IMG/VR virus record: IMGVR_UViG_3300027816_000370
Coordinates: 1-26,009 of that record
Length of the DNA stretch: 26,009 bases
Source of the DNA: a virus
Direction: 5' to 3' (one strand)
Shown here piece after piece: positions 4,994 through 24,339 of this stretch. Below the pieces are notes generated by a model, which worked only from the letters and a program-made list of their open reading frames with translations, did not search any database and was not told the DNA's origin. Numbering within the stretch: the first letter of the stretch is position 1; the number at the start of each line of letters is the position of its first letter. Position numbers and translations under genes: made by a program.

Positions 4994-5135
4994 ATTTTAT
5001 AAAGTTGGTTATATTCTAGACGAAGAACAAAAATGGGCTTGTTATTTTGACTTTAATTGTGCTCAAGAAGCTATGATGAAGATGATTCGACTCGGTATAA
5101 ATGTGACTGGAATGGAAACACAAATGATGGTGTGA
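4965..5135 (+). CDS. Small hypothetical protein
   Basis: A 56-residue product (MKRNRSQITEFYKVGYILDE...). The middle WACYFDFNCAQEAMMKMIRLG looks like a small alpha/beta protein with two cysteines. Its stop codon lies inside the leading TGTGACAG of the first regulatory cassette, so gene end and cassette start are fused. The long overlap with the gene before lowers confidence a little. Confidence 0.55.
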   Translation: MKRNRSQITEFYKVGYILDEEQKWACYFDFNCAQEAMMKMIRLGINVTGMETQMMV

Positions 5136-5203
5136 CAGTCTGTTGGCTGTCCACTAACCACGCCGAAGGGGCTCAGATCTTGGTATCTTAGCCATGTTGA
5201 GAC
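5131..5203 (+). repeat. Stem-loop/promoter cassette, copy 1
   Basis: Inverted repeat GACAG...CTGTC (5134-5151), a CGCCGA box at 5161-5166, then 17 nt to TATCTT at 5184-5189, followed by the conserved AGCCATGTTGAGA tail. It matches ten further copies to the right. I read it as a promoter with an upstream dyad that heads the gene at 5257. The leader downstream is about 60 nt. Confidence 0.75.
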
Positions 5204-5256
5204 ACGGATGTGGTCTTGACGCAACACAAACCCCTTTCAAGTAACTTCAAGACAAC

Positions 5257-5640
5257 ATGGCGACTCGTTCTCGCATTGGTGTTCAACTCAAGAATGGCTC
5301 TGTCCTTTCTGTGTATTGTCACTGGGATGGCTATCCGGAGTGGAATGGTAAGAAACTGAAAGAATACTTCAACACTCGGCAGAAAGCTGCGGAATTGGTT
5401 GATGGTGGAGACATCAGTGCTCTGTGGACTGATAAAGATTGGGATGGTAAAGAACAAGAGTTCGGTACTCTTTACTACGAAGGTCGTGGTGATGTAGACA
5501 CTGAACCCAATTTGAGTGAATCTTTCCAAGACTTTATCAAGTCCGTGAATGATTCTTGGGCGGATTATGCTTACCTCTTTGCCGATGGTGAGTGGAAGTG
5601 TTATACTCCTAAAGGTAATGAAGAAAAAATCCCTGCCTGA
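5257..5640 (+). CDS. Conserved phage protein with CHWDGYP motif
   Basis: A 127-residue product starting MATRSRIGVQLKNGSVLSVY, then CHWDGYPEWNG near residue 22. I recall a phage family with the same opening (MATRSRIG, short loop, IYCHWDGYP) from many phages infecting different hosts; no activity is assigned. The rest alternates beta-like stretches and acidic loops. It is the first gene after cassette copy 1. The next gene starts one base after its stop. Confidence 0.72.
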   Translation: MATRSRIGVQLKNGSVLSVYCHWDGYPEWNGKKLKEYFNTRQKAAELVDGGDISALWTDKDWDGKEQEFGTLYYEGRGDVDTEPNLSESFQDFIKSVNDSWADYAYLFADGEWKCYTPKGNEEKIPA

Positions 5641-5641
5641 T

Positions 5642-5779
5642 ATGGAAAACCTCATTCAAGTGAAGTATTACTTCAAGGAACATCCCAACACTACTCTCTC
5701 GGTGTTCCTTAAGACTAAAGAACAAGTTGAGGCTTTCAAGGCTAAACATCCCGACTATGTTTATGTGGAGGCTAAATGA
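5642..5779 (+). CDS. Small hypothetical protein
   Basis: A 45-residue product (MENLIQVKYYFKEHPNTTL...) with a beta-strand start and a KTKEQVEAFKAKHPDY helix. The start directly follows the upstream stop. It overlaps the next gene as ATGA. Probably a tiny alpha/beta protein; family not recognised. Confidence 0.6.
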   Translation: MENLIQVKYYFKEHPNTTLSVFLKTKEQVEAFKAKHPDYVYVEAK

Positions 5780-5916
5780 TTTACGTTGTTGAACTTTATG
5801 TTGGCGGCACTGTCTTCAAAGAAGAAGTGATTGCTACTAATCCTAAAGATGCCCGCGAAACTGCTCTTGCTCGTAATCCCAAAGCAAAAGTTGTTGGTGT
5901 TAACGTTAAATTCTGA
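5776..5916 (+). CDS. Small hypothetical protein
   Basis: A 46-residue product (MIYVVELYVGGTVFKEEVIA...), predicted beta-hairpin, helix (PKDARETALAR), beta. The fold pattern resembles other tiny cyanophage proteins that pair a hairpin with one helix, including the one next to it. ATGA overlap with the gene before. No function known. Confidence 0.6.
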   Translation: MIYVVELYVGGTVFKEEVIATNPKDARETALARNPKAKVVGVNVKF

Positions 5917-5924
5917 AAATTATT

Positions 5925-6332
5925 ATGACTAAACAAAACGGATTTATTGACCCTGCTGTTGCTGCTATTGCTGTCGGTGTGGTTGTGATTGGTGGTCTCA
6001 TCTTCATTGGTGGCCCACAATATAATGTGTGGCAACAATCTCTTGCTGGTAAGGCGGAACTGCAGAAAGCAGAATACACACGTCAGGTTGCTGTTCTTGA
6101 AGCACAAGCAAAGAAAGATAGTGCTCAACAACTTGCTGATGCTGAAATCATTCGTGCTACTGGTGTTGCTAAAGCAAACCAAATCATCGGTGATAGTCTG
6201 AAAGATAACCGTGAGTATCTTCAGTACCTGTATATCACTGGTATTGAAGATGGTGCCAAGAATGGTAACGTGACCATCTATGTTCCCACCGAAGGTGGTA
6301 TGCCAGTTCCTACTCTTCAAATGAATAAGTGA
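5925..6332 (+). CDS. Membrane protein with SPFH/prohibitin-like tail
   Basis: A 135-residue product. Residues 10-30 form one membrane segment (AVAAIAVGVVVIGGLIFIGG). It is followed by an Ala/Glu/Gln-rich helix (EAQAKKDSAQQLADAEIIRA) and then GVAKANQIIGDSLKDN, EYLQYLYI and a YVPTEGG end. This matches the C-terminal helix and tail of prohibitin/stomatin (band 7) proteins without the SPFH domain itself. I recall similar short proteins from cyanophages and other phages. It would oligomerise at the host inner membrane; its role is unknown. The following secreted protein starts within its stop. Confidence 0.72.
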   Translation: MTKQNGFIDPAVAAIAVGVVVIGGLIFIGGPQYNVWQQSLAGKAELQKAEYTRQVAVLEAQAKKDSAQQLADAEIIRATGVAKANQIIGDSLKDNREYLQYLYITGIEDGAKNGNVTIYVPTEGGMPVPTLQMNK

Positions 6333-6718
6333 TGAAACATCTGTTGATTCTTGTGTCTCTGTTGGTAACTTCTCCTGCATTTGCACAAACAAAAGAAGTC
6401 ACTAAACAGAAAGTATATCGTCCTTTTACATACGAAACTGCATGTGCATTGGAAACTCCTCAAGAGTTTCAAGTAGATACATGTAAAGTTGTGGAAACTA
6501 GGGAGTCTACTGGTGCTCTTCGCACTCGTAATATCTTCTCTAATCGTTTCCGTCTTACCATCAAATCTCGTTTTGATAAAGAAAAGGGATTTGTAACTTG
6601 GGATTCTCACAATAAGTTTGAGTACAAGTTTGAATATAAAGTTGGTGGTGTAGATGGCCTTGGTGCCTGGTCTTATGTAATGCCAGGATTCTTACTTGAG
6701 AATGTCTCATGGGACTGA
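6332..6718 (+). CDS. Secreted protein with signal peptide
   Basis: A 128-residue product beginning MKHLLILVSLLVTSPAFA, a typical Sec signal peptide with an A-F-A cleavage site at about residue 18. The mature part has two cysteines (around residues 38 and 51) that could form a disulphide, and a beta-rich Phe/Lys-rich C-terminal half. It is therefore probably periplasmic or envelope-directed. ATG 6332 overlaps the previous stop; a GTG three bases earlier is an alternative. No enzyme family recognised. Confidence 0.7.
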   Translation: MKHLLILVSLLVTSPAFAQTKEVTKQKVYRPFTYETACALETPQEFQVDTCKVVETRESTGALRTRNIFSNRFRLTIKSRFDKEKGFVTWDSHNKFEYKFEYKVGGVDGLGAWSYVMPGFLLENVSWD

Positions 6719-6771
6719 TAAGGATCTTTGATCAATCAGCCCTTGACTTTCTTCCGTTTTTTTCTTATTGT
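6718..6771 (+). promoter_or_regulatory. Sigma70-type promoter with shared upstream block
   Basis: TTGACT (6743-6748), 17-nt spacer, TATTGT (6766-6771). It is preceded by ATAAGGATCT then TGATCAAT (6718-6735), a block that recurs at 8985-9003 before another promoter. It would serve the gene at 6795. The shared block may be a binding site or a recombination footprint. Confidence 0.6.
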
Positions 6772-6794
6772 ACTTTTGTTCAACTGATTCACAC

Positions 6795-6941
6795 ATGAAC
6801 GACGATTTCAATTTTGATTCCTTTGATGAAGGTGATCTCTATGAATCCTTGATGGAATCTAATCCAGAAGATTGGCTTCCTGATGCTGGTATCCGAGAAG
6901 AGTTTGATTCTGAAACTCTTGCCCTTCTACGGAACTTTTAG
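6795..6941 (+). CDS. Acidic mini-protein
   Basis: A 48-residue strongly acidic product (MNDDFNFDSFDEGDLYESLM..., ending TLALLRNF). It stands alone between two promoters. Small, very acidic proteins made early by phages often act as DNA mimics or inhibitors, but nothing in the sequence shows that here. The 3' end overlaps the -35 of the next promoter. Confidence 0.6.
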   Translation: MNDDFNFDSFDEGDLYESLMESNPEDWLPDAGIREEFDSETLALLRNF

Positions 6942-6947
6942 TATAAT
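6919..6947 (+). promoter_or_regulatory. Sigma70-type promoter
   Basis: TTGCCC (6919-6924), 17-nt spacer, perfect TATAAT (6942-6947) right after a stop codon. The following gene starts at 6973 with an AGGTGA ribosome-binding site, leaving a leader of about 20 nt. Confidence 0.6.
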
Positions 6948-6972
6948 AAAATGGGTAAGTAGGTGAGTGTTA

Positions 6973-7479
6973 ATGAAGGTTGTTGAAAGACACCGATACG
7001 AAAACGGAGAAATCTTTGAGACTAGATCTCTGAGGTTTCTCCCTTTTTATTACTCGGAAGAGATTGCTGAATCTCTGATGAAGATCATTCGTAATCAACT
7101 TACACCTGACTTGCTGACTAAAAAGTATCGCAAGGAGAATGAAACAAACCCAATGTACGGGCATTGTTATCATTCAACTCAAGCCCTATTTTATCTCATG
7201 GAACCTCACGATTTGATTCCAATGAGTGGAATAGATTACAGAGGTGATACACACTGGTGGTTGTATGATGACCGAGGAGTTATCTATGACACAACCGCAG
7301 ATCAGTATTACTCTGTGGGACAAGTTCCCCCACATGCTGTTGGAAAGAAAACAGCTTGGTATGGTTGGAAACAACGACCACACCAAAGATCTCTCACTTT
7401 AATCATGAGAGTTCTTGATGCTTGTAACATTGAGTATTGTTACGAAACCATCAAACCTCAGACGGGGGGCTTGACATAG
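6973..7479 (+). CDS. Cys/His protein, papain/transglutaminase-like phage family
   Basis: A 168-residue product from ATG 6973 (GTG 6967 is an alternative; AGGTGA favours 6973). The diagnostic parts are YGHCYHSTQALFYL with Cys65, GDTHWWLYDDRG with His94, and VIYDTTADQY with Asp106. I recall a widespread phage family with GHCYxxxEALYHL, then HWWL, then DPTAxQ. The ordered Cys-His-Asp suggests a papain/transglutaminase-like fold, but no substrate is known. Its last codons overlap the -35 of the next promoter. Confidence 0.7.
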   Translation: MKVVERHRYENGEIFETRSLRFLPFYYSEEIAESLMKIIRNQLTPDLLTKKYRKENETNPMYGHCYHSTQALFYLMEPHDLIPMSGIDYRGDTHWWLYDDRGVIYDTTADQYYSVGQVPPHAVGKKTAWYGWKQRPHQRSLTLIMRVLDACNIEYCYETIKPQTGGLT

Positions 7480-7499
7480 TTCTTTGTCTGATCTATACT
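7471..7499 (+). promoter_or_regulatory. Consensus sigma70 promoter
   Basis: TTGACA (7471-7476), 17-nt spacer, TATACT (7494-7499): the best host-type promoter in the window. It overlaps the end of the upstream gene. Transcription should begin near 7506, giving a leader of about 60 nt to the DUF262-HNH gene. Confidence 0.78.
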
Positions 7500-7565
7500 C
7501 AAAACATCAAAGACACGGACACAATCCCAACTCTTAATTGAGACGGTCAAAACTCCAAGTCCTAG

Positions 7566-8969
7566 ATGCAAACCTTACAAACAAAAACCATGAAAACTAA
7601 CACCAAAACGTACACTCTGACTGTATCTCAACTGGCTTCTCTACAAAAGGACACCAAGATTTATCTTGATGAAGCCTTCCAGTCCAATACACGTTGGAAT
7701 ACTGCAATGAATCAAGCATACATTAAGTCTGTGCTTGAAGGTAAAGCAATTACCCCCATTACTTTAGGTAAAATCTCTGATCTTTTGAGTTCTATTGAAC
7801 TTCATTATGGTCCTACTCATTCTGACTATCAATTTTTTAGGGATCTTCTAGATCAAGATTTCATCTATATCACGATTGATGGAAATAATCGTGATAACTG
7901 CATCTGCAAGTTCCTGAACAATGAGTTTCCCCTCTCTGAAGGGAAATACTATATTGAACACAATAACATTGTGTACTTTGAAGCGACTAAGAACAACAAG
8001 TATTTCAAAGATCTAGATGCAGAAGTTCGCAACTACATTGAGAACATTTCTCTGAACACTCTTGTAGTTTTGCAATCTGATCGTAAGGGTCTTGCTGAAC
8101 TGTTCAGTAACATTAATGAGGGTCTTCCCCTTAATAATCAAGAGAAACGCAACGCTACTCCTTGTCGTTTCGGTGCTCTTGTTAGGAATCTTGTTCAAAG
8201 TCACTTGAATGGATTTTCTATGTTGTATAGTTCTAAGAACATCAATCGTCGTTATCCCGATGAATTGGTTGTGACAATTTCCACAATCGTTGCTCATGGG
8301 ATAAAGAATCTGGATAAGAATACTCTAGATGCTGCTTATGGTGATTCTACGGTTGAGGTTATTTCTTTCAACAAAACCGCAACTATTGTTGAACAACTTT
8401 CTAAGATTGTTGTCAACTATGGTGCTGCTGGATTTGATGTTGGTGGTAAGAAAAACTCTAACCTGATTGACTTTGCAATGTTGTTGAACTATCTCAACAA
8501 TAACTCGATTGTCATCGAAGATTACGAAGCTTTCTACAACTGGTTCACTGAAAGTCAGGGAGAACGAATTGAAGATCCTACCATTCTCTACTATGGTAAA
8601 AAGGGTAATAATCCTCGTAGTTATGCTGGTCTTCTCCGTGGATCTTCTTCCAATTTCCTTCAAATCCGACTCAGTAAGTTGGTTGATTCCATCTCTTCTA
8701 CACCAGACAACGTTCTGACCTTCCGTGACAAAGATCGCAAGTATGATCCTAAGATTCGATTCTCTCTTTGGAAATCTCAGGGTGGGCGATGTGCATTGAC
8801 TGGTGAACCTATTGATGCACGTCACATCTACGATGGATCTGTGACTCATATCGACCATAAAGATCCTTGGTCGAAAGGTGGACAAACTACAGTTGAAAAT
8901 GCACAACTGGTATTTGCAAATGCAAATCTCCGTAAAGGTGCTCAACTCGTAGAAGTTCCCTCTCTTTGA
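7566..8969 (+). CDS. DUF262-HNH endonuclease
   Basis: A 467-residue protein. The N-terminal half shows DUF262 (ParB/sulfiredoxin-like) features: IDGNNRDNCICKFLNNEF (DGNNR at 105-109), where GmrS-type proteins have DGQQRL, and later NEGLPLNNQEKRNA. The last 70 residues form an HNH nuclease: RCALTG, then THIDHKDPWSKGG with His428/His431, VENAQL with Asn445, and ANLRKG. The DUF262-HNH order is that of GmrSD-type restriction nucleases acting on modified DNA. In a phage it may attack host or rival DNA, or act in its own DNA metabolism. ATG 7566 used; ATG 7590 is an alternative. A strong promoter precedes it and a helicase follows. Confidence 0.8.
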   Translation: MQTLQTKTMKTNTKTYTLTVSQLASLQKDTKIYLDEAFQSNTRWNTAMNQAYIKSVLEGKAITPITLGKISDLLSSIELHYGPTHSDYQFFRDLLDQDFIYITIDGNNRDNCICKFLNNEFPLSEGKYYIEHNNIVYFEATKNNKYFKDLDAEVRNYIENISLNTLVVLQSDRKGLAELFSNINEGLPLNNQEKRNATPCRFGALVRNLVQSHLNGFSMLYSSKNINRRYPDELVVTISTIVAHGIKNLDKNTLDAAYGDSTVEVISFNKTATIVEQLSKIVVNYGAAGFDVGGKKNSNLIDFAMLLNYLNNNSIVIEDYEAFYNWFTESQGERIEDPTILYYGKKGNNPRSYAGLLRGSSSNFLQIRLSKLVDSISSTPDNVLTFRDKDRKYDPKIRFSLWKSQGGRCALTGEPIDARHIYDGSVTHIDHKDPWSKGGQTTVENAQLVFANANLRKGAQLVEVPSL

Positions 8970-8984
8970 GAACTTATCTAATCC

Positions 8985-9050
8985 ATAAGGATCTCTGATC
9001 AATGGCCCTCTTGCCCCGCAACGGGTAAGAGGGTATTCTAGCTATGTTGA
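8985..9050 (+). promoter_or_regulatory. Variant cassette: hairpin plus promoter before helicase
   Basis: ATAAGGATCTC...GATCAAT block (shared with 6718), then a hairpin CCCTCTTGCCC/GGGTAAGAGGG (one wobble) with a 6-nt loop. Within it, TTGCCC (9011-9016), 17 nt and TATTCT (9034-9039) form a promoter. It is followed by AGCTATGTTGA, the tail of the repeated cassette. So it is a hybrid of both promoter types. Confidence 0.65.
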
Positions 9051-9061
9051 AACGCAATTCA

Positions 9062-9202
9062 ATGAATCTCCGACCACACCAAGAACGTGCAGTTGAGGTA
9101 ATGCAACTGCATAAAAAGGGTCAAATCATTGTTCCCACTGGTGGTGGTAAAACAATGAAGATGATCAAAGACGCAATGATTCAATTCCAGGAACAGAAAT
9201 GA
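9062..9202 (+). CDS. SF2 helicase, N-terminal part with Walker A
   Basis: A 46-residue frame: MNLRPHQERAVEVMQLHKKG then IIVPTGGGKT, i.e. the Q-like LRPHQ element and Walker A (motif I) of a superfamily 2 helicase. It stops at TGA 9200-9202, while the rest of the helicase begins at ATG 9199 in the -1 frame (ATGA overlap). An in-frame ATG at 9044 inside the cassette tail is less likely. In the cyanophage relatives I recall, the two parts are one protein. Either two coupled subunits are made or one base is missing from the AAA run at 9197-9199. Confidence 0.7.
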   Translation: MNLRPHQERAVEVMQLHKKGQIIVPTGGGKTMKMIKDAMIQFQEQK

Positions 9203-10308
9203 TCGAAATGCAATCACAAACTGAAAAAACGATTGTTGTTGTTGCTCCTCGTATTCTTCTCGCAGAACAACTTTGTTCCGAGTTTCTGGAGTTTATCACC
9301 AACGCAAGTGTGATGCACGTTCACAGTGGTGAAACTCATCACTTTTCGACTACCAAACCCCAAGAGATTTCTAACTGGTGGGTGAATACTCGTGGTCACA
9401 AACTAATCTTCACCACTTACAACTCTCTGGAGAGGTTGCAACAATCTCGCATCAAGGTTGACACCATTTACTTTGACGAAGCTCACAACTCCGTCAAACG
9501 CAACTTCTTCCCTGCAACTGAATACTTCAGTCAGGAAGCTGACCGTTGTTACTTCTTCACTGCGACTCCCAAACATTCACTCGCAGTTGGTAAGCCTGGG
9601 ATGAATGATGTAGAAGTTTATGGCCAAGTCATTTGTAATGTTCCTGCACCTGAACTTGTCGAAGGTGGTTACATCCTGCCTCCGAAAGTTATCGCAAAAC
9701 AACTTCCGATGGTAAAGTCTGGTAAGATTCCTGCAGATCGTGACTGTGAGAATCTGATTGAGACTCTGGATGAATGTGGTAAGGGTAAAGTGTTGATCTG
9801 TGCGAAAGCTACCAAACAGATCTCTGCACTGATGTCTGAGACTGACTTCATTCAACAACTGCAAGATCGCGGATTCTCTTACCTCTACATCACCGCAAAG
9901 ACTGGTGCAATTATTGATGGTAAGAAGGTGAATCGTGAGGTGTTCTTTGATACTCTCTCTGCATGGGGTAAGGATGACTCTAAGAAGTTCGTTGTTCTCC
10001 ACCACTCCATCCTTTCTGAGGGTATCAATGTGTCAGGTCTGGAAGGTGTCATCTTTATGCGTTCGATGGACTACATTGGTATCTCCCAAACCATCGGCCG
10101 TGTGATTCGGATGCACCATGATGATGCAGCTCGCATCCATAGTGGTGAACTTGTCCCTGGTGATGTTGACAACTATACCAAATCTTTCGGTCTAGTTGTT
10201 GTTCCTGTCTTCAACAAAGTTGGGATCTCTACTCACCAGAAGATCCAAGCTGTGGTGGATACGATCTTCCAAAAAGGAATGCCCGCTATTTCTGTCGTAA
10301 AACGATGA
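9199..10308 (+). CDS. SF2 DEAH helicase, main part
   Basis: A 369-residue product with ordered helicase motifs: Ia VVVAPRILLAEQ (about 13-24), IFTTYNSL, II DEAH (93-96), III FTATP (120-124), V SEGINVSGLEGVIF (about 273-286), VI QTIGRVIR (297-304). It lacks Walker A, which is in the overlapping upstream frame. I recall a closely similar single-chain DEAD/DEAH helicase as a conserved cyanomyovirus protein, related in type to UvsW/type III Res helicases. Role probably DNA repair, recombination or replication. The next gene overlaps its stop. Confidence 0.8.
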   Translation: MIEMQSQTEKTIVVVAPRILLAEQLCSEFLEFITNASVMHVHSGETHHFSTTKPQEISNWWVNTRGHKLIFTTYNSLERLQQSRIKVDTIYFDEAHNSVKRNFFPATEYFSQEADRCYFFTATPKHSLAVGKPGMNDVEVYGQVICNVPAPELVEGGYILPPKVIAKQLPMVKSGKIPADRDCENLIETLDECGKGKVLICAKATKQISALMSETDFIQQLQDRGFSYLYITAKTGAIIDGKKVNREVFFDTLSAWGKDDSKKFVVLHHSILSEGINVSGLEGVIFMRSMDYIGISQTIGRVIRMHHDDAARIHSGELVPGDVDNYTKSFGLVVVPVFNKVGISTHQKIQAVVDTIFQKGMPAISVVKR

Positions 10309-11838: not shown

Positions 11839-11839
11839 G

Positions 11840-12229
11840 ATGATGTACCCCAACACAAGTATTCTTGATCCCGACAATGGCCCTACTGGATTTACCACTC
11901 CAGACTTCCAATTTGCTGCTATTCCATTTGGAAAAGAATACATGATCATTGCAGATGGCCAACAACTTGAAGTAGTCAAAACAAGACAACTTGCAGAGAT
12001 TCGGCTTGAACAATTAAAAAACTCGCATCGGACTCTGAAGAAGGGTACTAAGACCCCTGCACCACCAAAATCACAAAAAAAGGCGAAAACGTCTAGTGGC
12101 CGCAAGGGGTCTCAGGGACCAAAGCCAAAGGCCACCAAGGGTTCTACCAAGTCTCCTAAATCTAAGAGTGTGACAGTCAAGAAACCGTACACTCTTCATC
12201 CAAATCCATTGATGGATGCACTACTCTAG
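11840..12229 (+). CDS. Protein with histone H1-like basic tail
   Basis: A 129-residue product. Residues 1-62 are an ordinary phage-like domain (LDPDNGPTGFTTPDFQFAAI, then a helix QLAEIRLEQLKN). Residues 63-120 are a Lys/Pro/Ser/Thr/Gly-rich tail with blocks such as KKGTKTPAPPKSQKKAKT and KGSTKSPKSKS, like histone H1 C-termini, and probably bind nucleic acid. ATG 11840 or 11843. The last 60 bases double as a degenerate copy of the regulatory cassette. Confidence 0.7.
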   Translation: MMYPNTSILDPDNGPTGFTTPDFQFAAIPFGKEYMIIADGQQLEVVKTRQLAEIRLEQLKNSHRTLKKGTKTPAPPKSQKKAKTSSGRKGSQGPKPKATKGSTKSPKSKSVTVKKPYTLHPNPLMDALL

Positions 12230-13937: not shown

Positions 13938-13941
13938 CCAT

Positions 13942-13970
13942 TGACAAATACGGACAAAACCCTTACACTA
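13942..13970 (+). promoter_or_regulatory. Sigma70-type promoter
   Basis: TTGACA (13942-13947), 17-nt spacer, TACACT (13965-13970), followed by ATAAAAG. It serves the gene at 13993; the leader would be short (about 15 nt) and lacks a clear ribosome-binding site. Confidence 0.72.
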
Positions 13971-14596: not shown

Positions 14597-14622
14597 TATG
14601 TGACGCTTTGAGAACTGTCACA

Positions 14623-14647
14623 GGGGCTCTTTACAGAGCCCCTTTTT
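14623..14647 (+). terminator. Rho-independent terminator
   Basis: GGGGCTCT (14623-14630), loop TTAC, AGAGCCCC (14635-14642), then five T: a perfect 8-bp stem with a tetraloop. A second inverted repeat GTGAC...GTCAC lies just upstream (about 14600-14621). The -35 of the next promoter lies inside the loop. Confidence 0.85.
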
Positions 14648-14664
14648 GCATGTATTGTGGCTAC
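14630..14664 (+). promoter_or_regulatory. Promoter overlapping terminator, leaderless type
   Basis: TTTACA (14630-14635), 17-nt spacer, TATTGT (14653-14658), then GGCTAC and ATG 14665. The TATNNT-GGCYAC-ATGAAGAAC end is nearly identical to the cassette copy at 23859-23923. With usual spacing, transcription begins at or next to the ATG. Confidence 0.6.
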
Positions 14665-15609
14665 ATGAAGAACACTCACCTCGAACATCCCGAAGATTCT
14701 GTACTTCTCGGTAAGAAGGCTGTGCAGGATACTATCAACTATCTGCGTAACTGCAAAGGTGATTGTAGTGTGAAGTATGATGGTGCTCCTGCCATTGTGT
14801 TTGGGACGCATCCTGTCACTAATCAATTCTTTGTAGGGACGAAAAGTGTATTCAATAAGAAGAAAGTTAAGGTTAATTATACTCACGCTGACATCGAAAA
14901 GAATCACGGTAATAATTCCAAAGTTGCAGGAATACTTCACACTTGCCTTGAAGTATTGCCTAAGTTGGAGGGTGTTTACCAAGGTGATTTTATTGGGTTT
15001 GGTGGTACTAACCGATTCACCCCTAATACTATCACTTATACCTTCAATACCGATAGCGATTCTTTTCGTAATTGTTCTGTGGTCTTTGCTGCTCATACAC
15101 GGTATTCTGGAGATACGTCATGCGTTGAAGGTTCGGAGAACCCGCTCAACAAACTGAGTGCATCTTTTGATGTTCCTGAGTATCTCAAACACAACTTTAT
15201 GTCAACTTACTTTGTGAATGGTGATGCACAATTTACCTCCCGTCGTCGTAGGATTGATTACCTTCTTGGCCTTGCAAGTTTGGTTAGCAATTTTGTTAGA
15301 TACCCTGAAGAAAAAGAAGTAGCAAATCTCAAAGTTGCGATCAATAAGTGCATCCGAGAGAATGTTCCTGTTGATTGTATTGACGGCAATCTTCTCCTGT
15401 TGTTCAACCTGTTGACCAAAGCCAAGGATTTGATTGTAGAAGGAATCACCGTCACTGGTGATCAAGTTGATGCAGTGATTGATCTCGGTGTGGATTATGT
15501 TGCGTCTGGCCATGAAGGTTATGTTCACTCTAATGATTATGGGACTTTCAAGTTAGTCAACCGTCGTATGTTCTCTTACTTTAACTTCACCAAACCAAAA
15601 GGTTGGTAG
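14665..15609 (+). CDS. KYDGAP nucleotidyltransferase/ligase-like phage protein
   Basis: A 314-residue product. SVKYDGAPAIVFG (Lys37) resembles motif I (KxDGxP) of ATP-dependent DNA/RNA ligases. GTKSVFNKKK follows, then GVYQGDFIGF (motif III-like), and near the end EGYVHSNDYGTFKLV (motif IV/V-like Glu284, Lys296). I recall this KWDGAPA...GTKSVFNK...QGDxM family (DUF6267-type) from many T4-like and cyanophage genomes; its activity is not established. It may be a ligase or mRNA/DNA nucleotidyltransferase. It stands alone between a terminator/promoter and a cassette. An ATG further upstream lies in the terminator and is rejected. Confidence 0.78.
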   Translation: MKNTHLEHPEDSVLLGKKAVQDTINYLRNCKGDCSVKYDGAPAIVFGTHPVTNQFFVGTKSVFNKKKVKVNYTHADIEKNHGNNSKVAGILHTCLEVLPKLEGVYQGDFIGFGGTNRFTPNTITYTFNTDSDSFRNCSVVFAAHTRYSGDTSCVEGSENPLNKLSASFDVPEYLKHNFMSTYFVNGDAQFTSRRRRIDYLLGLASLVSNFVRYPEEKEVANLKVAINKCIRENVPVDCIDGNLLLLFNLLTKAKDLIVEGITVTGDQVDAVIDLGVDYVASGHEGYVHSNDYGTFKLVNRRMFSYFNFTKPKGW

Positions 15610-15680
15610 GGACAGTTGCCTGGCTGTCCACCAGAGGCGCCAGGATCGTTCCTGGCATCGTATCTTAGCTATGTTGAGAG
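15609..15680 (+). repeat. Stem-loop/promoter cassette
   Basis: GGACAG...CTGTCC inverted repeat at the upstream stop, box CGCCAG (15638-15643), 17 nt, TATCTT (15661-15666), AGCTATGTTGAGAGG tail that also supplies a ribosome-binding site. A second hairpin GCCAGG/CCTGGC (15639-15656) lies between box and TATCTT. Confidence 0.75.
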
Positions 15681-17194: not shown

Positions 17195-17199
17195 CCTAG

Positions 17200-17270
17200 T
17201 GTGACGGTTGGCGGACTGGACACCAAACCCGCCAACCGCAGCCAGATCCTGTATCTTGGCCATGTTGAGA
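17200..17270 (+). repeat. Stem-loop/promoter cassette, perfect hairpin form
   Basis: Here the first half is CGGTTGGCGG (17205-17214), which pairs perfectly with CCGCCAACCG (17229-17238) across a 14-nt loop. The box is thus part of the stem. TATCTT at 17252-17257, then GGCCATGTTGAGAG. Same position and role as other copies. Confidence 0.75.
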
Positions 17271-17773: not shown

Positions 17774-17911
17774 ATGTTCACATCCTTGACTATATTTGTT
17801 GCATGGTTTGCCTTTGGTTACTGTATTGCTGACATTATCACGAATTGGCGTAGTCAAAAACAAATTGATGAGCTCGTCAAAGAGATTGTAAAAGAAGGCG
17901 ATAAACAATGA
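17774..17911 (+). CDS. Small single-pass membrane protein
   Basis: A 45-residue product with one N-terminal membrane segment (LTIFVAWFAFGYCIADIIT) and a charged helix (KQIDELVKEIVKEGDK). AGGAG at 17762-17766 gives a good ribosome-binding site. It overlaps the RlpA-like gene as ATGA, so it may anchor or assist that protein. Confidence 0.62.
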   Translation: MFTSLTIFVAWFAFGYCIADIITNWRSQKQIDELVKEIVKEGDKQ

Positions 17912-18213
17912 TCCTCGCTGGATTGATGTGTGGAATCGCAACATTTTATGGTGTTGGTGATGGATTCCACGGCCAAACAACTGCAAGCGGAAAATCATTC
18001 AATGCCTATGGTCTGACTGCTGCTCATCCATACTTGAGAATGGGCAGCAAATTACGCATCACAAATCAGGATAACATGAAACAAGTTATCGTGACTGTGA
18101 ATGATCGTGGACCGTACAGCCATGCGGATATTGATCTTTCGTATGGGGCTTTTAGGAGAATTGCTTCACCTTCACAAGGTAACGCAGTTGTATGTTTTAG
18201 GGTGATCGGTTAG
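17908..18213 (+). CDS. RlpA-like double-psi beta-barrel protein
   Basis: A 101-residue product that is almost entirely an RlpA domain: GIATFYG, FHGQTTASGKSFNAYG, LTAAH, then VIVTVNDRGPYSHADIDLSYGAF. RlpA proteins are septal lytic transglycosylases that cut denuded glycan strands. His40 and Asp66 match the catalytic His and Asp (Pseudomonas His131, Asp157) with the same spacing, but the Glu120 position is Lys29. There is no clear signal peptide; residues 1-15 are hydrophobic but short. It may bind rather than cut peptidoglycan. ATGA-coupled to a membrane protein. Confidence 0.82.
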   Translation: MILAGLMCGIATFYGVGDGFHGQTTASGKSFNAYGLTAAHPYLRMGSKLRITNQDNMKQVIVTVNDRGPYSHADIDLSYGAFRRIASPSQGNAVVCFRVIG

Positions 18214-18233
18214 TTACAACAATTCATTTTTGA

Positions 18234-18390
18234 TGAATCTGATTGCAGGGGATGACCTAATCCCCTACTGGGGTAAAATTGCAGAAAAATCATTGTTTGC
18301 TCAAACTCAGATCCCTTGCCACGACAGGGATCTCAAAGAGAGATCGGTGCGACGCTTTGAGGGTTGGACAGATCAGAGGCAAACCGAGCC
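18234..18390 (+). other. Hairpin-rich stretch, coding status unclear
   Basis: Holds two clean inverted repeats: AGGGGAT/ATCCCCT (18247-18266, 6-nt loop) and AGATCCCT/AGGGATCT (18309-18333, 9-nt loop), neither followed by a T run. A frame 18234-18442 (MNLIAGDDLIPYWGKIAEKS...) runs through it but ends inside the next cassette. I favour a structured non-coding segment. Confidence 0.35.
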
Positions 18391-18393
18391 AGA

Positions 18394-18466
18394 GTGTGAC
18401 AATCCCCAAACCGCACACCAATTCAACCAAAGGTGGCCATGAGGATGTATCTTAGCTATGTTGAGA
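18394..18466 (+). repeat. Stem-loop/promoter cassette, degenerate copy
   Basis: TGTGAC start (18395), then a diverged middle without the GACAG/CTGTC repeat, AACCAA in place of the CGCCGA box, TATCTT (18448-18453) and AGCTATGTTGAGA tail. It heads the gene at 18483. The promoter end is well kept while the stem-loop part has decayed. Confidence 0.62.
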
Positions 18467-18482
18467 CAAACACACAAACCTC

Positions 18483-18704: not shown

Positions 18705-18707
18705 ATC

Positions 18708-18887: not shown

Positions 18888-18890
18888 AAG

Positions 18891-19097: not shown

Positions 19098-19105
19098 TGT
19101 AGCAA

Positions 19106-19180
19106 TGTGACAGTCTGCGGGCTGTCCACTGATCGTGCCGAAGGGGGCTGTGGCCCTGTATCTTAGCCATGTTGAGAGGA
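19106..19180 (+). repeat. Stem-loop/promoter cassette
   Basis: TGTGACAG...CTGTCCAC with inverted repeat GACAG/CTGTC (19109-19126, 8-nt loop), TGCCGA box (19136-19141), 17 nt, TATCTT (19159-19164), AGCCATGTTGAGAGGA. The GAGAGGA lies 10 bases before ATG 19188 and serves as a ribosome-binding site. One of the clearest copies. Confidence 0.78.
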
Positions 19181-19187
19181 ATCACTG

Positions 19188-19427: not shown

Positions 19428-19429
19428 TC

Positions 19430-19621: not shown

Positions 19622-19627
19622 TTCGGA

Positions 19628-19804: not shown

Positions 19805-20028
19805 TGATGTACGCAACCCTAGCTGAGTTTTACCGTTATGTTTATGCCTTCTATGGTCGTGGTGGTGTGTATCCCATGGGCGCAACTTTAGATGAGATTG
19901 AATCAGCAACTAAGATTCTCATTCGTGAGCTCACCGCAACAGATAAAGACTTTGTGGGTGATAGCATTGATCGTGAGCTTGTGCGGGACATCCTCATTTC
20001 AGAATACGGCTTAGAGTTTCCTGACTAA
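19804..20028 (+). CDS. Small hypothetical protein
   Basis: A 74-residue product (MMYATLAEFYRYVYAFYGRG...). First part is a Tyr-rich helix and a GGVYPMGAT loop; the rest is a helix (DEIESATKILIRELTATDKD) and the end DILISEYGLEFPD. Stop is followed at once by a cassette. I do not recognise it. Confidence 0.65.
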   Translation: MMYATLAEFYRYVYAFYGRGGVYPMGATLDEIESATKILIRELTATDKDFVGDSIDRELVRDILISEYGLEFPD

Positions 20029-20030
20029 GT

Positions 20031-20104
20031 ATGTGCCAGTTGGCGGGCTGTCCACCAAATCCGCCAAAGGGGCTCAGGGCCCTGTATCTTAGCCATGTTG
20101 AGAC
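20031..20104 (+). repeat. Stem-loop/promoter cassette
   Basis: TTGGCGG (20040-20046) pairs perfectly with CCGCCAA (20061-20067) over a 14-nt loop, like the 17200 copy. TATCTT at 20085-20090, AGCCATGTTGAGAC tail. Heads the gene at 20116. Confidence 0.76.
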
Positions 20105-20115
20105 AAACAAACGCA

Positions 20116-20552: not shown

Positions 20553-20554
20553 TC

Positions 20555-21017: not shown

Positions 21018-21024
21018 AATTATC

Positions 21025-21180
21025 ATGGTCGTTCACTTCTATGAAGGTCAGTCTTACTCTTGGGAGTATTCCAACCGCAGCTATGATGATAGCGGATGCT
21101 GGGAGGATTATCTGACTGCCGATGAGTATGAAGATGCTCTAGATCGTAAGCGGTTTGAGCAATCAAATCGAGACTGGTAG
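21025..21180 (+). CDS. Small acidic aromatic protein
   Basis: A 51-residue product (MVVHFYEGQSYSWEYSNRSY...), Tyr/Trp/Asp-rich, with YLTADEYEDALDRKRFEQ as a helix. TAG 21178-21180 is the first base triplet of the following cassette. Not recognised. Confidence 0.6.
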   Translation: MVVHFYEGQSYSWEYSNRSYDDSGCWEDYLTADEYEDALDRKRFEQSNRDW

Positions 21181-21250
21181 GCCAATTCACTGGCTGCACA
21201 CTAAAGCTGCCGAGTGCAGCCAGAACCTGTATCTTGGCCATGTTGAGAGG
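21177..21250 (+). repeat. Stem-loop/promoter cassette, perfect hairpin form
   Basis: CTGGCTGCAC (21190-21199) pairs perfectly with GTGCAGCCAG (21214-21223), again over a 14-nt loop, but with different partners than in the 17200 and 20031 copies. TATCTT 21230-21235, GGCCATGTTGAGAGGAA tail with ribosome-binding site for ATG 21263. Confidence 0.75.
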
Positions 21251-21262
21251 AATCGCTCCCCA

Positions 21263-21406
21263 ATGTTTGACGAACTCTGGTCCGAGATTGCTGATGCTCC
21301 TGGTGAGATCTTCGACCGTCCGATGACAGCAGAAGAACGAGCTGAGTTTCAGAGAGTCTGTGAAATGTCTGAAGAAGAGTATTACTATTACATGGAAGCT
21401 GCCTGA
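21263..21406 (+). CDS. Very acidic mini-protein
   Basis: A 47-residue product (MFDELWSEIADAPGEIFDRP...). It is strongly acidic, with a C-terminal RVCEMSEEEYYYYMEAA. GAGAGGAA of the cassette lies about 12 bases upstream. Not recognised; charge would fit a protein or DNA-mimic role, but that is only a guess. Confidence 0.6.
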   Translation: MFDELWSEIADAPGEIFDRPMTAEERAEFQRVCEMSEEEYYYYMEAA

Positions 21407-21407
21407 A

Positions 21408-21587
21408 ATGATGAACGATCTCCGTCAACGTTGTATGGATCTCGCCGATGAAATGTCGGCCGAGATCAATGGCAACCTGTTCTATGTTCCCGACGAAGAC
21501 ATAGAGAACTGCCTCAAAGCTCTGACTGAGGATAACATCCAAGATGTCGCAGCTGAACTTGCAAACCTAGCTCACTGGTTTAACTGA
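21408..21587 (+). CDS. Small acidic helical protein
   Basis: A 59-residue product from ATG 21408 (or 21411). MMNDLRQRCMDLADEMSAEI..., then EDIENCLKALTEDNIQDVAA: helical and acidic. TGATCATG joins it to the next gene. Not recognised. Confidence 0.62.
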   Translation: MMNDLRQRCMDLADEMSAEINGNLFYVPDEDIENCLKALTEDNIQDVAAELANLAHWFN

Positions 21588-21589
21588 TC

Positions 21590-21787
21590 ATGAATCTGAA
21601 CACTCTTGAATTGCTCATTGCTGACTGCTTTGAGTACATCAATGACAACGATCCCAAAGCTGGTGCGTATTGGAGCAACCAACTCTTCACCAAGCAAGGT
21701 GACATCAAACGTCATATGATTACTGAGATGACGCTTCAGCGGCTAGAGAACATCGCTGCTGAACTCTGCGACTATCAGGAAGTCTGA
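21590..21787 (+). CDS. Small helical hypothetical protein
   Basis: A 65-residue product (MNLNTLELLIADCFEYINDN...). Two helices around an acidic loop and GAYWSNQLFTK, then QRLENIAAELCDYQEV. Its end (ENIAAEL) vaguely resembles the ELE endings of other small proteins. Function unknown. Confidence 0.64.
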   Translation: MNLNTLELLIADCFEYINDNDPKAGAYWSNQLFTKQGDIKRHMITEMTLQRLENIAAELCDYQEV

Positions 21788-21815
21788 TTAACACAAACAC
21801 AACACACACAAAACA

Positions 21816-22142
21816 ATGGAACTGACCAAAGCTTTCCCTCCCGCTGACGATCTGATCATGAAACTGCAAGAGATTGATTACAGCAAACACTTCCACAAAT
21901 ACATGGACATTGTTGAAACTATTGTGGTGTGGATTGCCGCAATCGCTACTATCATCTTCGAGAAGCTGCAGACGATGCGATTCAAAACTCCCGACACGAT
22001 TGCTGACTACTTCTACTTCAACATCAACATGATTGCTGCTCCTGGTGATGAGATTGTGGGTCTGAGTGTAGGCAATCGTTACATCGGTTTCTATGGCGAC
22101 TCTCTGAACTGGGGTGTGCTCGACGAGAACGGCTGCCTTTGA
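21816..22142 (+). CDS. Protein with one membrane segment
   Basis: A 108-residue product. Residues 30-48 (IVETIVVWIAAIATIIFEKL) form a membrane segment. Residues 55-108 look like a small beta domain (NINMIAAPGDEIVGLSVGNR, then YIGFYGDSLNWGVLD). The leader (21788-21815) is CA-rich and lacks a ribosome-binding site. A strong terminator follows, so this ends a transcription unit. Function unknown. Confidence 0.66.
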   Translation: MELTKAFPPADDLIMKLQEIDYSKHFHKYMDIVETIVVWIAAIATIIFEKLQTMRFKTPDTIADYFYFNINMIAAPGDEIVGLSVGNRYIGFYGDSLNWGVLDENGCL

Positions 22143-22171
22143 TTTGAGCGAACAATTAAATTGATTTAATT

Positions 22172-22213
22172 CTGGCTGCATGGAGTGATCCAACCTACCA
22201 TGCAGCCAGTTTT
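22172..22213 (+). terminator. Rho-independent terminator
   Basis: CTGGCTGCATGG (22172-22183) and CCATGCAGCCAG (22198-22209) form a perfect 12-bp stem over a 14-nt loop, followed by TTTT. An AT-rich repeat AATTAAAT/ATTTAATT lies just upstream. The stem shares CTGGCTGCA with the 21177 cassette. Confidence 0.8.
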
Positions 22214-22317
22214 AACGCTTTTTCCGGTTTCTGCCGTAGTGGTGGCCATGAGTCTCACCGCTTGCGACTTGAGACTGGCTGGGGGCTGGGTCAGATCCTA
22301 CCAAACCTGGCCGGTGT
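22214..22317 (+). other. Non-coding stretch, possibly decayed cassette
   Basis: No gene. It holds the inverted repeat AGTCTCA/TGAGACT (about 22251-22276, 12-nt loop) and then GTCAGATCCTACCAAACCTG GCCGG, which looks like the CAGATCCTGTATCTTGGCC end of a cassette with its TATCTT destroyed. The functional cassette copy follows at once. Confidence 0.35.
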
Positions 22318-22381
22318 GTGACAATCGGGTGGCTGTCCACTGATCCCGCCGAGAGGGCCCGTTAGGCCCTATATTGGCCAC
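22316..22381 (+). repeat. Cassette, TATATT-GGCCAC leaderless type
   Basis: TGTGACAAT...GGCTGTCCAC, CGCCGA (22347-22352), 17-nt spacer, TATATT (22370-22375), then GGCCAC and ATG 22382. The 5' stem half GACAA no longer matches CTGTC fully. A short GGGCC/GGCCC repeat lies in the spacer. The ATG position equals the expected transcription start. Confidence 0.72.
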
Positions 22382-22432
22382 ATGAGGGAGAGGGAACGAC
22401 CTCCCCCCACCAAACCATTCTCCGCTCAAACC

Positions 22433-22747
22433 ATGCGTAAGATCGAAACTCTGATGAACCAGGCCATCCAGAAAGAAATCGACTGGAAGCTGGACAACAC
22501 TGAAGTAATCAGCTGCTCCAACGTTTCTGATGTCTACCTGCATGGCAACCTGATTGCTCGTATCGGTGAAACTTGGATGGAACTGTTTGACGGTGGCTGG
22601 CAGACTGCTACCACCAAGTCCCGTCTGAATGCTATTCTCTCTGCACACGGCTGCCCTGGTGAGCGTGTCTTCCAACAGAAAGGCCAGTGGTTCATCACCA
22701 TCAACGGAGCTAAGGTTCCTTTCTTCTCGGGTATGCGTCTGAACTGA
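22433..22747 (+). CDS. Conserved cyanophage MRKIE protein
   Basis: A 104-residue product from ATG 22433 (MRKIETLMNQAIQKEIDWKL...). VYLHGNLIARIGETW and DGGWQTATTKSRLNAILSAH match blocks I recall (VYLHGNxIA, GWxTxTTKSRLNA) from a very widespread cyanophage family that starts MRKIE. An in-frame ATG at 22382, next to the promoter, would add a Pro/Arg-rich 17-residue leader. Function unknown. Overlaps the next gene as TGATG. Confidence 0.74.
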   Translation: MRKIETLMNQAIQKEIDWKLDNTEVISCSNVSDVYLHGNLIARIGETWMELFDGGWQTATTKSRLNAILSAHGCPGERVFQQKGQWFITINGAKVPFFSGMRLN

Positions 22748-22905
22748 TGGCTAGAACCAAAACGCTAACATTCAAGTCACCAAACAAAATGAAAACAATT
22801 GGCCTGATCTTTGTGATAGCGTTTCTGATCTTTCCATCAGTTCGCTACACCACTGGGAGCATTCTGCACTCCACTGGTGACTTCATTCAATCCACAGCTG
22901 ATTGA
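22747..22905 (+). CDS. Small membrane or exported protein
   Basis: A 52-residue product from ATG 22747; a second in-frame ATG at 22789 gives the more signal-like MKTIGLIFVIAFLIFPSV. The hydrophobic stretch is followed by a polar Ser/Thr-rich tail (YTTGSILHSTGDFIQSTA). Single-pass membrane or secreted. Function unknown. Confidence 0.58.
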   Translation: MARTKTLTFKSPNKMKTIGLIFVIAFLIFPSVRYTTGSILHSTGDFIQSTAD

Positions 22906-22910
22906 TTACG

Positions 22911-23072
22911 ATGAAGCACACCAACACAGTTCGCATCATTGACCGCCTCGGCTTGTTCCCTGAAACTAGAGGAAAAGCCCGCTACATCTCGGTCAAAACT
23001 TATGCTCATGCAATGGAGATTGTCGATGAGCAAAACAAACTTGGCAACACAGCCACACTGATTAACTGGTAA
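22911..23072 (+). CDS. Small basic hypothetical protein
   Basis: A 53-residue product (MKHTNTVRIIDRLGLFPETR...), with GKARYISVKTYAHAMEIVDE as a strand-helix unit. Not recognised, although the arrangement resembles tiny alpha/beta proteins elsewhere in the window. Confidence 0.6.
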   Translation: MKHTNTVRIIDRLGLFPETRGKARYISVKTYAHAMEIVDEQNKLGNTATLINW

Positions 23073-23078
23073 CAAATT

Positions 23079-23246
23079 ATGGCTAAAGATTCTACAATGG
23101 TTGAAACTGAATACTACGAGCTTCCGCTTGATTTTTATCTGAAGTGTGAGTTCATTGCTGCTCAATTAGAGGTCACAGTTGATTACCTTCTGGAGGAGTT
23201 TTACGATGATGGTGAACTCATTGTGCCAAACTTTGTGCAGGAATGA
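23079..23246 (+). CDS. Conserved small cyanophage protein
   Basis: A 55-residue acidic product with YYELPLDFYLKCEFIAAQLE then VTVDYLLEEFYDDG. I recall the YYELPxDxYxxCEFIAxxLxVTVDYxxEEF block from several cyanophages. The VTVDYLLEEF end looks like a small helix-turn-helix-like pair, but DNA binding is unproven. Confidence 0.67.
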   Translation: MAKDSTMVETEYYELPLDFYLKCEFIAAQLEVTVDYLLEEFYDDGELIVPNFVQE

Positions 23247-23253
23247 GCAACAA

Positions 23254-23326
23254 TAGGACAGTCTGATGGCTGTCCACTAAATACGCCGCACCCAGCCAGA
23301 ACTGGTATCTTAGCCATGTTGAGAGA
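23254..23326 (+). repeat. Stem-loop/promoter cassette
   Basis: GGACAG...CTGTCC inverted repeat (23256-23274), ACGCCG box, TATCTT (23306-23311), AGCCATGTTGAGAG. A second short pairing, TGGCTG with CAGCCA, links the repeat to the spacer. Heads the gene at 23343. Confidence 0.76.
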
Positions 23327-23342
23327 TTCAACCGAACCCCAA

Positions 23343-23474
23343 ATGTTCACAATCACCTATCAAGTTCCCTACAACAACTGTGAGTGGCGGACTCAAAGCT
23401 TCAAGACTCTCGCTGAAGCAGAGTCGATGATAGCTTTCTACCGCTCCTGTGGTTCACCTGCTAAACTTGTCTGA
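23343..23474 (+). CDS. Conserved small cyanophage protein
   Basis: A 43-residue product: strands MFTITYQVPYNNCEW, then FKTLAEAESMIAFYRSCGSP and AKLV. I recall the (A/E)ESMVAFYRSCGT(K/Q)AxLV ending from many tiny cyanophage proteins. Function unknown. TGATCATG joins it to the next gene. Confidence 0.68.
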   Translation: MFTITYQVPYNNCEWRTQSFKTLAEAESMIAFYRSCGSPAKLV

Positions 23475-23476
23475 TC

Positions 23477-23713
23477 ATGAAAACTTTAACTCTTCAAGTT
23501 ACAGACGTTGAGTTTGATTTTGATGATGAAGATTTTACGATTGAAGAGCAACTAGAAGTTATCAGCTCTGTCGTTGGTAACACCTTTGAGGTTGAAGTTG
23601 ATGATGACGATGATGATGAAGCCATCGCACATTGTCTAGTTGAAGAGGTGACAGATGCCACTGGTTGGTGTGTCTTCTCTCTTAATTTTGTTCACATTCT
23701 TAACACTCACTGA
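23477..23713 (+). CDS. Conserved acidic small cyanophage protein
   Basis: A 78-residue product starting MKTLTLQVTDVEFDFDDEDF, with a run of seven Asp/Glu residues in the middle and the end EEVTDATGWCVFSLNFVHIL. I recall the MKTLTLQVTDxEFDF start and the TGWxxxSLxYxHIL end from cyanophages. Very acidic; function unknown. The next gene starts after TGAC. Confidence 0.7.
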   Translation: MKTLTLQVTDVEFDFDDEDFTIEEQLEVISSVVGNTFEVEVDDDDDDEAIAHCLVEEVTDATGWCVFSLNFVHILNTH

Positions 23714-23714
23714 C

Positions 23715-23861
23715 ATGCGAATCGCTCTTCTGATTGCTACTCTTGCTCTTGGGCTGAAGACTGGTCTTGCTGCTCATGCGACTGTGAATGCTTATCAAGA
23801 AGCACAAGCCGAACGGATGTGCCAGATTGATCCAAGCTACTGCGGACTGAAGCAAAAATAG
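23715..23861 (+). CDS. Small secreted protein
   Basis: A 48-residue product with a signal peptide (MRIALLIATLALGLKTGLAA, cleavage near AHA). The mature part is about 25 residues with two cysteines (MCQIDPSYCG). It looks like a tiny periplasmic peptide. A TTG-initiated longer form is unlikely. Its TAG overlaps the next cassette. Confidence 0.63.
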   Translation: MRIALLIATLALGLKTGLAAHATVNAYQEAQAERMCQIDPSYCGLKQK

Positions 23862-23923
23862 GACAGTTGGATGGCTGTCCACTCAATCCGCCGAACCGAC
23901 CCGTTTGGCCCTATATTGGCCAC
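23859..23923 (+). repeat. Cassette, TATATT-GGCCAC leaderless type
   Basis: GGACAG...CTGTCC inverted repeat (23861-23880), CGCCGA (23889-23894), 17-nt spacer, TATATT (23912-23917), GGCCAC, then ATG 23924. Six bases separate -10 and ATG, as in the copies at 14630 and 22316. Confidence 0.76.
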
Positions 23924-24250
23924 ATGAAGAACGAAACCGCTCAAATGTCACTTTTCTCCCAAGGCTGGAAAGCTGAAGTCTACTTCGGTAGCGAGTTGAC
24001 TGCTCATCATATGAACACCCGTTCGGTGTATCGTTTCAAGGAGAATGCCAATGTGAGCATCACTCACTCCGGAAAGTATGCTGAGAATGGAACTGTGGAT
24101 GTGTTCGCAGTTTCTATTCGTGAGGAGATCAATCCTCGTCACTCTGTGACACAAACTGTTGAGACTTTTGATAACTGGTTGGACGCATACTACTGCGGTG
24201 TTCAGTGTGTCAACAATCTGAACAGCGACATTCTCGCTGCTCAATGCTGA
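23924..24250 (+). CDS. Hypothetical protein, possibly leaderless
   Basis: A 108-residue product (MKNETAQMSLFSQGWKAEVY...). ATG 23924 lies at the expected transcription start; ATG 23945 is the alternative if a leader is needed. Strand-rich with SVYRFKENANVSITHSGKY, VDVFAVSIREEI, then a helix (DNWLDAYYCGVQCVNNL). Four cysteines in the C-terminal part count few. No family recognised. Confidence 0.66.
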   Translation: MKNETAQMSLFSQGWKAEVYFGSELTAHHMNTRSVYRFKENANVSITHSGKYAENGTVDVFAVSIREEINPRHSVTQTVETFDNWLDAYYCGVQCVNNLNSDILAAQC

Positions 24251-24263
24251 TCGGTTAGGGTTA

Positions 24264-24339
24264 GGTGGGACAGTCATCTGGCTGTCCACCAAATCCGCCG
24301 AGACCAGCCACCTGATGTATTCTAGCCATGTTGAGAGGA
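24264..24339 (+). repeat. Stem-loop/promoter cassette
   Basis: GGGACAG...CTGTCC (about 24268-24288), CGCCGA (24296-24301), 16-nt spacer, TATTCT (24318-24323), AGCCATGTTGAGAGGAA. TGGCTG/CAGCCA can also pair. The ribosome-binding site GAGAGGAA precedes ATG 24351. Confidence 0.77.

Follow-up and report, generated by a model that had tools for sequence, protein, structure and literature searches.

Among the regulatory elements described for T4-type phages, two come closest to the repeated cassette considered here. Promoter-early stem-loop (PeSL) cassettes of these phages were reportedly described by Arbiol in 2010 and Comeau in 2014, and Doron et al. in 2016 are said to have found a new element serving the early genes of the T4-like cyanophages Syn9 and P-TIM40, with host-like promoters for the middle genes. 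In T4, middle promoters carry a MotA box, TGCTTA, near -30. Our subject is a family of cassettes, each composed of an inverted repeat (dyad), a box at the -35 position, a -10 hexamer and in most copies a conserved downstream core, in 26,009 nucleotides (nt) of viral DNA, IMG/VR record IMGVR_UViG_3300027816_000370; this whole stretch is called the window below. According to one review, cyanomyoviruses lack alt, modA, modB, motA and asiA, their mode of early and middle transcription is unclear, and the T4-type late promoter motif is TATAAATA or NATAAATA (PMC2984593). PeSLs were judged an unlikely explanation of the S-PM2 ORFanage, being sparse there, by Puxty et al., 2015 (PMC4503421). Within the portions of the surveyed literature at hand, which does not include Doron et al. 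and the two PeSL papers, no description of a cassette joining dyad and core was found.

We read the cassette as a portable early-class promoter of one small operon, in which the inverted repeat would be a DNA operator for a dimeric protein. Judged from sequence, we give this reading an even chance.

The cassettes of the window

The sequence-only reading had listed eleven cassettes. All are present on the plus strand, each with an inverted repeat, a C-rich box at the -35 position and a TATNNT -10. The shared order that it described holds for repeat, box and -10 in all eleven, but GCYATGTTGAGA follows the -10 in nine only and is replaced in both 22316 and 23859 by TATATTGGCCACATGARG (GGCCACATGARG). 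The -10 is TATCTT in the copies at 5131-5202 (dyad 5131-5154, C-rich box at the -35 position, -10 at 5184-5189, core to 5202), 15607-15679 (dyad, CGCCAG, -10 at 15661), 17197-17270 (-10 at 17252), 18391-18466 (18448), 19102-19177 (19159), 20028-20103 (20085), 21175-21248 (21230) and 23250-23324 (23306). It is TATTCT in the copy at 24263-24336 (24318) and TATATT in the two with a divergent core, 22314-22391 (22370, GGCCACATGAGG) and 23855-23930 (23912, GGCCACATGAAG); the next bases are AG or GG.

With at most one mismatch, the pattern TATNNTNGCYAYGTTGAGA matched the window ten times forward, never in reverse and never in a backwards control, and a weight matrix gave ten matches against none in the reversed window. 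Model R1, built on the upstream part of copies from the window, IMG/VR, S-CAM9, S-8S53, Syn9, DSL-LC02 and S-CREM1, gave twelve window matches at E 2e-5 or better and none further up to E=5. Eleven are the listed copies, which were part of its training set, with that at 20028-20103 scoring highest; the untrained twelfth (12165-12203, E 2e-5) lies inside the 3' end of open reading frame (ORF) 11840-12229. By eye, this candidate copy (12165-12227, plus strand) has a possible -10, TACTCT at 12222-12227, in the 35-nt register.

The cassettes had been said to lie directly after a stop codon. This applies to nine of the eleven, in three of which the stop falls within the repeat or at its margin (5135, 21180, 23861). 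Copies 18394 and 22316 begin 181 and 174 nt beyond the stops at 18213 and 22142. They overlap the TTG/GTG-started ORFs 18230-18442 and 22185-22343, and the stop rule would hold for them too if these are genes.

Positions 2843 to 26009 of the window, 23,167 bases in all, match a 162,060-base IMG/VR contig (G003) at 100% identity; the portion 76000-106000 of this contig was compared. Among cultured phages, the top matches in DNA comparison were the Synechococcus phages DSL-LC02 and S-CREM1, with small portions of the query only. The window virus is a Synechococcus virus, and the cassettes precede small accessory genes. Since 13 of the 14 R1 matches in the 162-kb contig lie on the plus strand within 78284-99850, the cassettes mark a single region. 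As described for PeSLs, multiple copies stand between small-gene modules of a variable region, and gene content differs among the window's relatives.

DNA operator or RNA stem-loop

In all eleven window copies the -10 is preceded by the first arm of the repeat at 49 or 50 nt and by the second at 34 or 35 nt. We found the same register in a wider set of 259 core copies (at least three of them chance matches to bacterial contigs): 192 score as dyads against 2 of 259 shuffled, and the first arm is 49-51 nt from the -10 in 188 of these 192. Seven cultured phages with other downstream sequence provided 30 sites. The distance was 34-35 nt in 21 of them and 36-37 nt in five, of which four also have NATACT available at 35 nt. 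Three of the remaining sites were at 42, 45 and 51 nt and one was without a right arm; those at 42 and 51 nt move to 35 and 36 nt once anchored by eye on the real GTCCAC.

When the spacer is taken as 17 nt, the -35 hexamer reads CGCCGA, CCGCCA or a close variant, and AACCAA in the copy with its -10 at 18448; the earlier remark that the -35 is not TTGACA holds for 11/11. A PeSL should have a strong sigma-70-like early promoter; in every window copy the -10 is good and the -35 poor. In TATATT copies (n=149), TTG occurs 45 times at a spacer of 17 nt, 12 times at 16, never at 13-15 or 18 and four times at 19-21. Because of this peak at 17 nt, the -35/-10 register is fixed and the CGCCGA box stands in the -35 register. 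An ATG follows 26-35 nt past the start of the -10 in 201 of 247 copies.

Read each from its own strand, both arms give one half-site, TGTG-M-CAGTY / GTGG-M-CAGYY, with the same A/C position. The repeat had previously been taken for a conserved RNA stem-loop. For the window's clade this could not be upheld, as covariation is absent and the arms of the TATCTT class pair at chance level. In an alignment of 74 copies, 73.5% of the cells were paired against 74.6% with partners shuffled; covariation was not found, its score was below the shuffled mean, and RNAalifold predicted 0 pairs. These 74 were drawn from 90 stretches, and among the 16 left out, by eye mostly non-cassettes, are the variant at 9034, three copies resembling the one at 12165, one mis-registered copy and one ordinary copy. 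The rows from Syn9, DSL-LC02 and S-CREM1 came from a dyad-pattern search, so that the set leans to the consensus. Therefore, the pairing test was repeated on core-anchored copies without a dyad filter (167 non-redundant copies, 56 of the TATCTT and 92 of the TATATT class). The variable M position varied without regard to the base that it would pair with (n=146; 65 Watson-Crick cells, with 65.9 expected by chance). Within the TATCTT class, arms of the same copy paired at 5.27 of 7 positions and arms of different copies likewise at 5.27, with 104 of 200 shuffles as high. Rfam gave 0 matches in the window at the gathering threshold. The absence of covariation, the identity of the two half-sites and the fixed 49-50 nt to the -10 in 11/11 argue that, in the window's clade, the repeat is probably better read as two half-sites of a dimer-binding DNA operator than as an RNA helix.

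Several observations weigh against our reading. Firstly, the dyad is below the score used in 67 of the 259 core copies. Secondly, same-copy arms of the marine TATATT class pair at 5.27 against 5.11 of 7 positions (1 of 200 shuffles as high), or at 4.76 against 4.45 when only Watson-Crick pairs are counted (0 of 200, with relatedness uncontrolled). This excess may reflect relatedness or a weak pairing constraint, and an RNA role may be possible in marine copies. Thirdly, the repeat folds slightly better than shuffles, with a mean z of -1.12 in 170 non-redundant copies and -1.28 in the 74. A candidate selection against pairing, suggested by C-G at the A/C position in 1 of 74 copies, was rejected because the wider set is independent (24 against 25.1). 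Fourthly, R1 matches nothing in P-TIM40 and S-SM2, and a looser scan of P-TIM40 gave 23 sites over the cut against 22 in the reversed control; four sites that by eye combined a dyad with a -10 were rejected at this level. Lastly, plain sigma-70-like motifs before early homologues are mentioned for S-PM2 and Syn9 in the review cited above (PMC2984593).

In a PeSL-like arrangement the repeat would instead act in RNA, as a stem-loop terminating or stabilising the transcript from upstream, and the promoter would follow it. The nine copies that follow a stop codon fit this, as do the slight arm-pairing excess of the TATATT class and the many single copies that fold well, down to -14.3 kcal/mol. So do the terminators of the TATATT class: an intrinsic terminator with a T-run lies between the dyad and the -10, just before the latter, in 13 of its 92 non-redundant copies against 1.2 in shuffles, and in several the -35 TTG is inside or adjoins the hairpin. 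With a looser criterion that allows the -10 as T-run, 69 of 259 copies qualify against 11 shuffled (TATCTT class 17 of 81). However, by sequence criteria the claim that the repeat is itself a terminator fails in the window's clade, where 2 of 56 TATCTT copies have an intrinsic terminator against 1.2 shuffled. The repeat there shows no covariation and is not followed by a T-run; 66 of 200 upstream ORFs, called mechanically, end 34-42 nt before the -10 and thus run through part of the repeat; and a terminator needs no fixed distance to a -10. It therefore seems unlikely that the cassettes are PeSL-like in this sense.

With the repeat as a DNA operator, host RNA polymerase and its main sigma factor would read TATNNT as the -10, the hexamer 17 nt upstream being a degenerate -35, which is NNGCCR-like in the window and in marine relatives frequently TTGACC or TTGCCA. 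The rigid operator, GTG(g)MCAGTY-N4/5-RRCTGKCCAC, would be centred about 53 nt upstream of the transcript start. A putative dimeric protein, either host-borne or phage-carried, would bind it, aid the polymerase and offset the poor -35. Transcription would begin with the G of GTTGAGAG, so that most copies would have a leader of about 16-20 nt, in which GAGAGG could be a weak ribosome-binding site. We infer promoter activity, early timing, the binding protein and activation rather than repression alike. The activator dependence proposed before is plausible on the sequence, because the -35 is poor while the dyad keeps a constant position upstream of the -10.

The same geometry points to a DNA site and is silent on the sign of the effect. 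A repressor or timing factor could thus bind the operator and shut the promoters off, as phages often do with early genes later in infection. Yet the site is upstream of the -35, the usual position of an activator, and the window copies retain the dyad without a good -35, which makes repression decidedly unlikely in our view.

Gene modules, a second operator type and spread among viruses

Across 24 segments a cassette stands at 77 of 844 gene junctions. For 69 gene families present in at least four segments, a cassette precedes 53 never, 14 sometimes and two always (permuted mean of always-families 0.007), counts that are only descriptive because the segments are related. One of the two always-families has the cassette in 9/9 cases, with seven different upstream neighbours.

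That the cassettes help to shuffle modules, as had been suggested, is weakly indicated: one clean exchange was found, but indels at cassettes are few and adjacency is mixed. The exchange concerns the cassette at 21175-21248, where a relative (G001) carries an extra module between two cassettes and the window has one cassette; both breaks are inside the cassette, at window positions 21217-21256. Chimaeric copies also occur, in which just one half, upstream or downstream, is shared. Indel events touched a cassette in 4/20, 2/15 and 2/19 cases, with cassette zones making up about 6% of the sequence. In the outer-gene view, neighbours across a cassette were kept less often than neighbours within an operon when the segments fell into the two bins of closest identity (54/86 vs 51/60 and 34/39 vs 39/40); in the two more distant bins, or counted outward from the first operon gene, cross-cassette neighbours were conserved as well or better. 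The 10-kb deletion of S-PM2 was considered as a cassette recombination and rejected, as no cassette lies at its ends. Cassettes tend to travel with their downstream genes and can serve as exchange points, and a sign that they are the main driver is absent. Given the few indels, the conserved neighbours and the S-PM2 deletion ends, it is very improbable that the cassette serves mainly as a recombination hot spot, with a secondary promoter role.

In some copies a TGATAAG...TGATCA-like repeat replaces the dyad, with a -35 that by eye is mostly TTGACC, TTGACT or TTGCCC. The window has this second operator type at 6716 and 8983, both on the plus strand. The former (6716-6771) has the -35 TTGACT at 6743 and the -10 TATTGT at 6766-6771, without the GTTGAGAG core. 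The latter (8983-9052) is an extra cassette copy with the core present (GCTATGTTGAAA) and an upstream element of the other kind; TTGCCC at its -35 position lies within a 10-bp hairpin, and its -10 is TATTCT at 9034. More tentatively, T4-like cyanophages without Alt, MotA and AsiA might mark early promoters with a single conserved operator for a dimer, which would keep a constant helical position and be recognised by a putative host or virion-borne activator. TGATAAG...TGATCA would then be an alternative box before the same or a similar core, giving at least two interchangeable upstream control boxes. We consider this wider scheme possible, though rather doubtful.

The copy at 8983-9052 heads a split UvsW-like helicase, with the Walker-A part (PTGGGKT) in a 52-aa ORF (9044-9202) that overlaps the 369-aa rest (9199-10308). 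A short first ORF was also seen in L041 and G002, and a single ORF of at least 400 codons in L035, L150, S-CAM9, S-8S53 and S-CREM1; PTGGGKT was not found in the piece of G001 searched. Outside the family, two sigma-70-like promoters without a dyad lie on the plus strand at 7471-7499 (TTGACA-17-TATACT) and 13941-13969 (TTGACA-17-TACACT). These near-consensus, host-like promoters are a possible second expression class. Within a cassette-headed run of small genes, the product of ORF 17908-18213 has a DPBB_1 (lytic transglycolase) domain (E 2e-19). A terminator-like hairpin at 14622-14643, AGGGGCTCTTTACAGAGCCCCT followed by TTTTG, is near the start of the DUF6267 ORF 14608-15609, and a tRNA-Gln called by ARAGORN at 5388-5480 within ORF 5257-5640 is probably false.

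The cassette layout recurs across viruses of marine and freshwater cyanobacteria. The exact core TATCTTAGCCATGTTGAGA was found in 52 IMG/VR stretches and three core variants in 95, 38 and 13, partly on the same contigs. In cultured Kanaloavirus phages it occurs at four (S-CAM9) and five (S-8S53) exact places. A scan of the initial 30 kb of S-PM2, which takes in the ORFanage region, gave no core. A host origin of the core was rejected: 84,980 bacterial and archaeal genomes gave six matches, none titled cyanobacterial, where about 7-8 were expected by estimate.

The dyad is the wider-spread part, and in DSL-LC02, for example, it is followed by TATTCTTAAAGAGTCAAAG, unlike the window core. It extends beyond the core to S-SZBM1, S-RSM4, S-ShM2, Syn9, DSL-LC02, S-CREM1 and P-SSM2. 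A scan of cyanophages with a profile built from the copies, which the sequence-only reading had proposed as a check, gave R1 matches with a best E between 1e-7 and 7e-5 in S-SZBM1, S-RSM4, S-ShM2 and P-SSM2, none of which had been used for training. S-CRM01 and S-PM2 matched weakly, with a best E of 0.006-0.007, and 14 of 16 records had a match when E values up to 1 were allowed. In S-CRM01, the region 120-146 kb (L141, L142) contains palindromes TGTGACAGT...ACTGTCACA, two of which match R1 on both strands (121431, 140251). The idea of a cyanophage promoter class thus stands in part: the cassettes are promoter-like, multi-copy, in viruses and at the head of small-gene operons, but the downstream GCCATGTTGAGAG is not cyanophage-wide.

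Comparison with known systems

In the -35 register, 11/11 copies have an NNGCCR-like hexamer or AACCAA rather than the MotA box of T4 middle promoters, for which no dedicated search was made. The T4-type late motif is absent at the cassette -10, where AG or GG comes after TATCTT, TATTCT or TATATT. Host sigma-70 promoters share the TATNNT 17 nt from the -35 register, and a TTG hexamer, TTGACC or another, is present in many marine copies. In contrast to them, the cassette has an NNGCCR-like hexamer for TTGACA, an added dyad and a conserved stretch from about -6 to +8.

Like PeSLs, the cassettes are small, multi-copy promoter units between the modules of a variable region, and some marine copies join a promoter with a terminator. 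They differ in that the repeat of the window's clade has no T-run, covariation or terminator excess and that exchange at cassettes is seldom seen. Of the resemblance to PeSLs noted earlier, the multi-copy position between modules remains and the stem-loop as terminator does not, and the stem-loop reading is hereby corrected for the window's clade.

The rigid symmetric operator is shared by phages of Synechococcus and, in P-SSM2 at least, of Prochlorococcus, and could serve as bait for its reader protein; the dyad profile is usable to call such operons in uncultured viruses.

Another close match is the element of Doron et al. It belongs to the same phage family, and Syn9 has the dyad ahead of small genes between 43 and 49 kb, mostly 34-35 nt from the -10. 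The early and middle promoter classes reportedly described in that work also match the two promoter kinds in the window. On the other hand, R1 finds none in P-TIM40, and the downstream core of the window differs from that of Syn9. The cassette is probably the Syn9 early element or contains it. Beyond the known element, we add the operator geometry, the pairing tests, the nested terminators and the second operator type.

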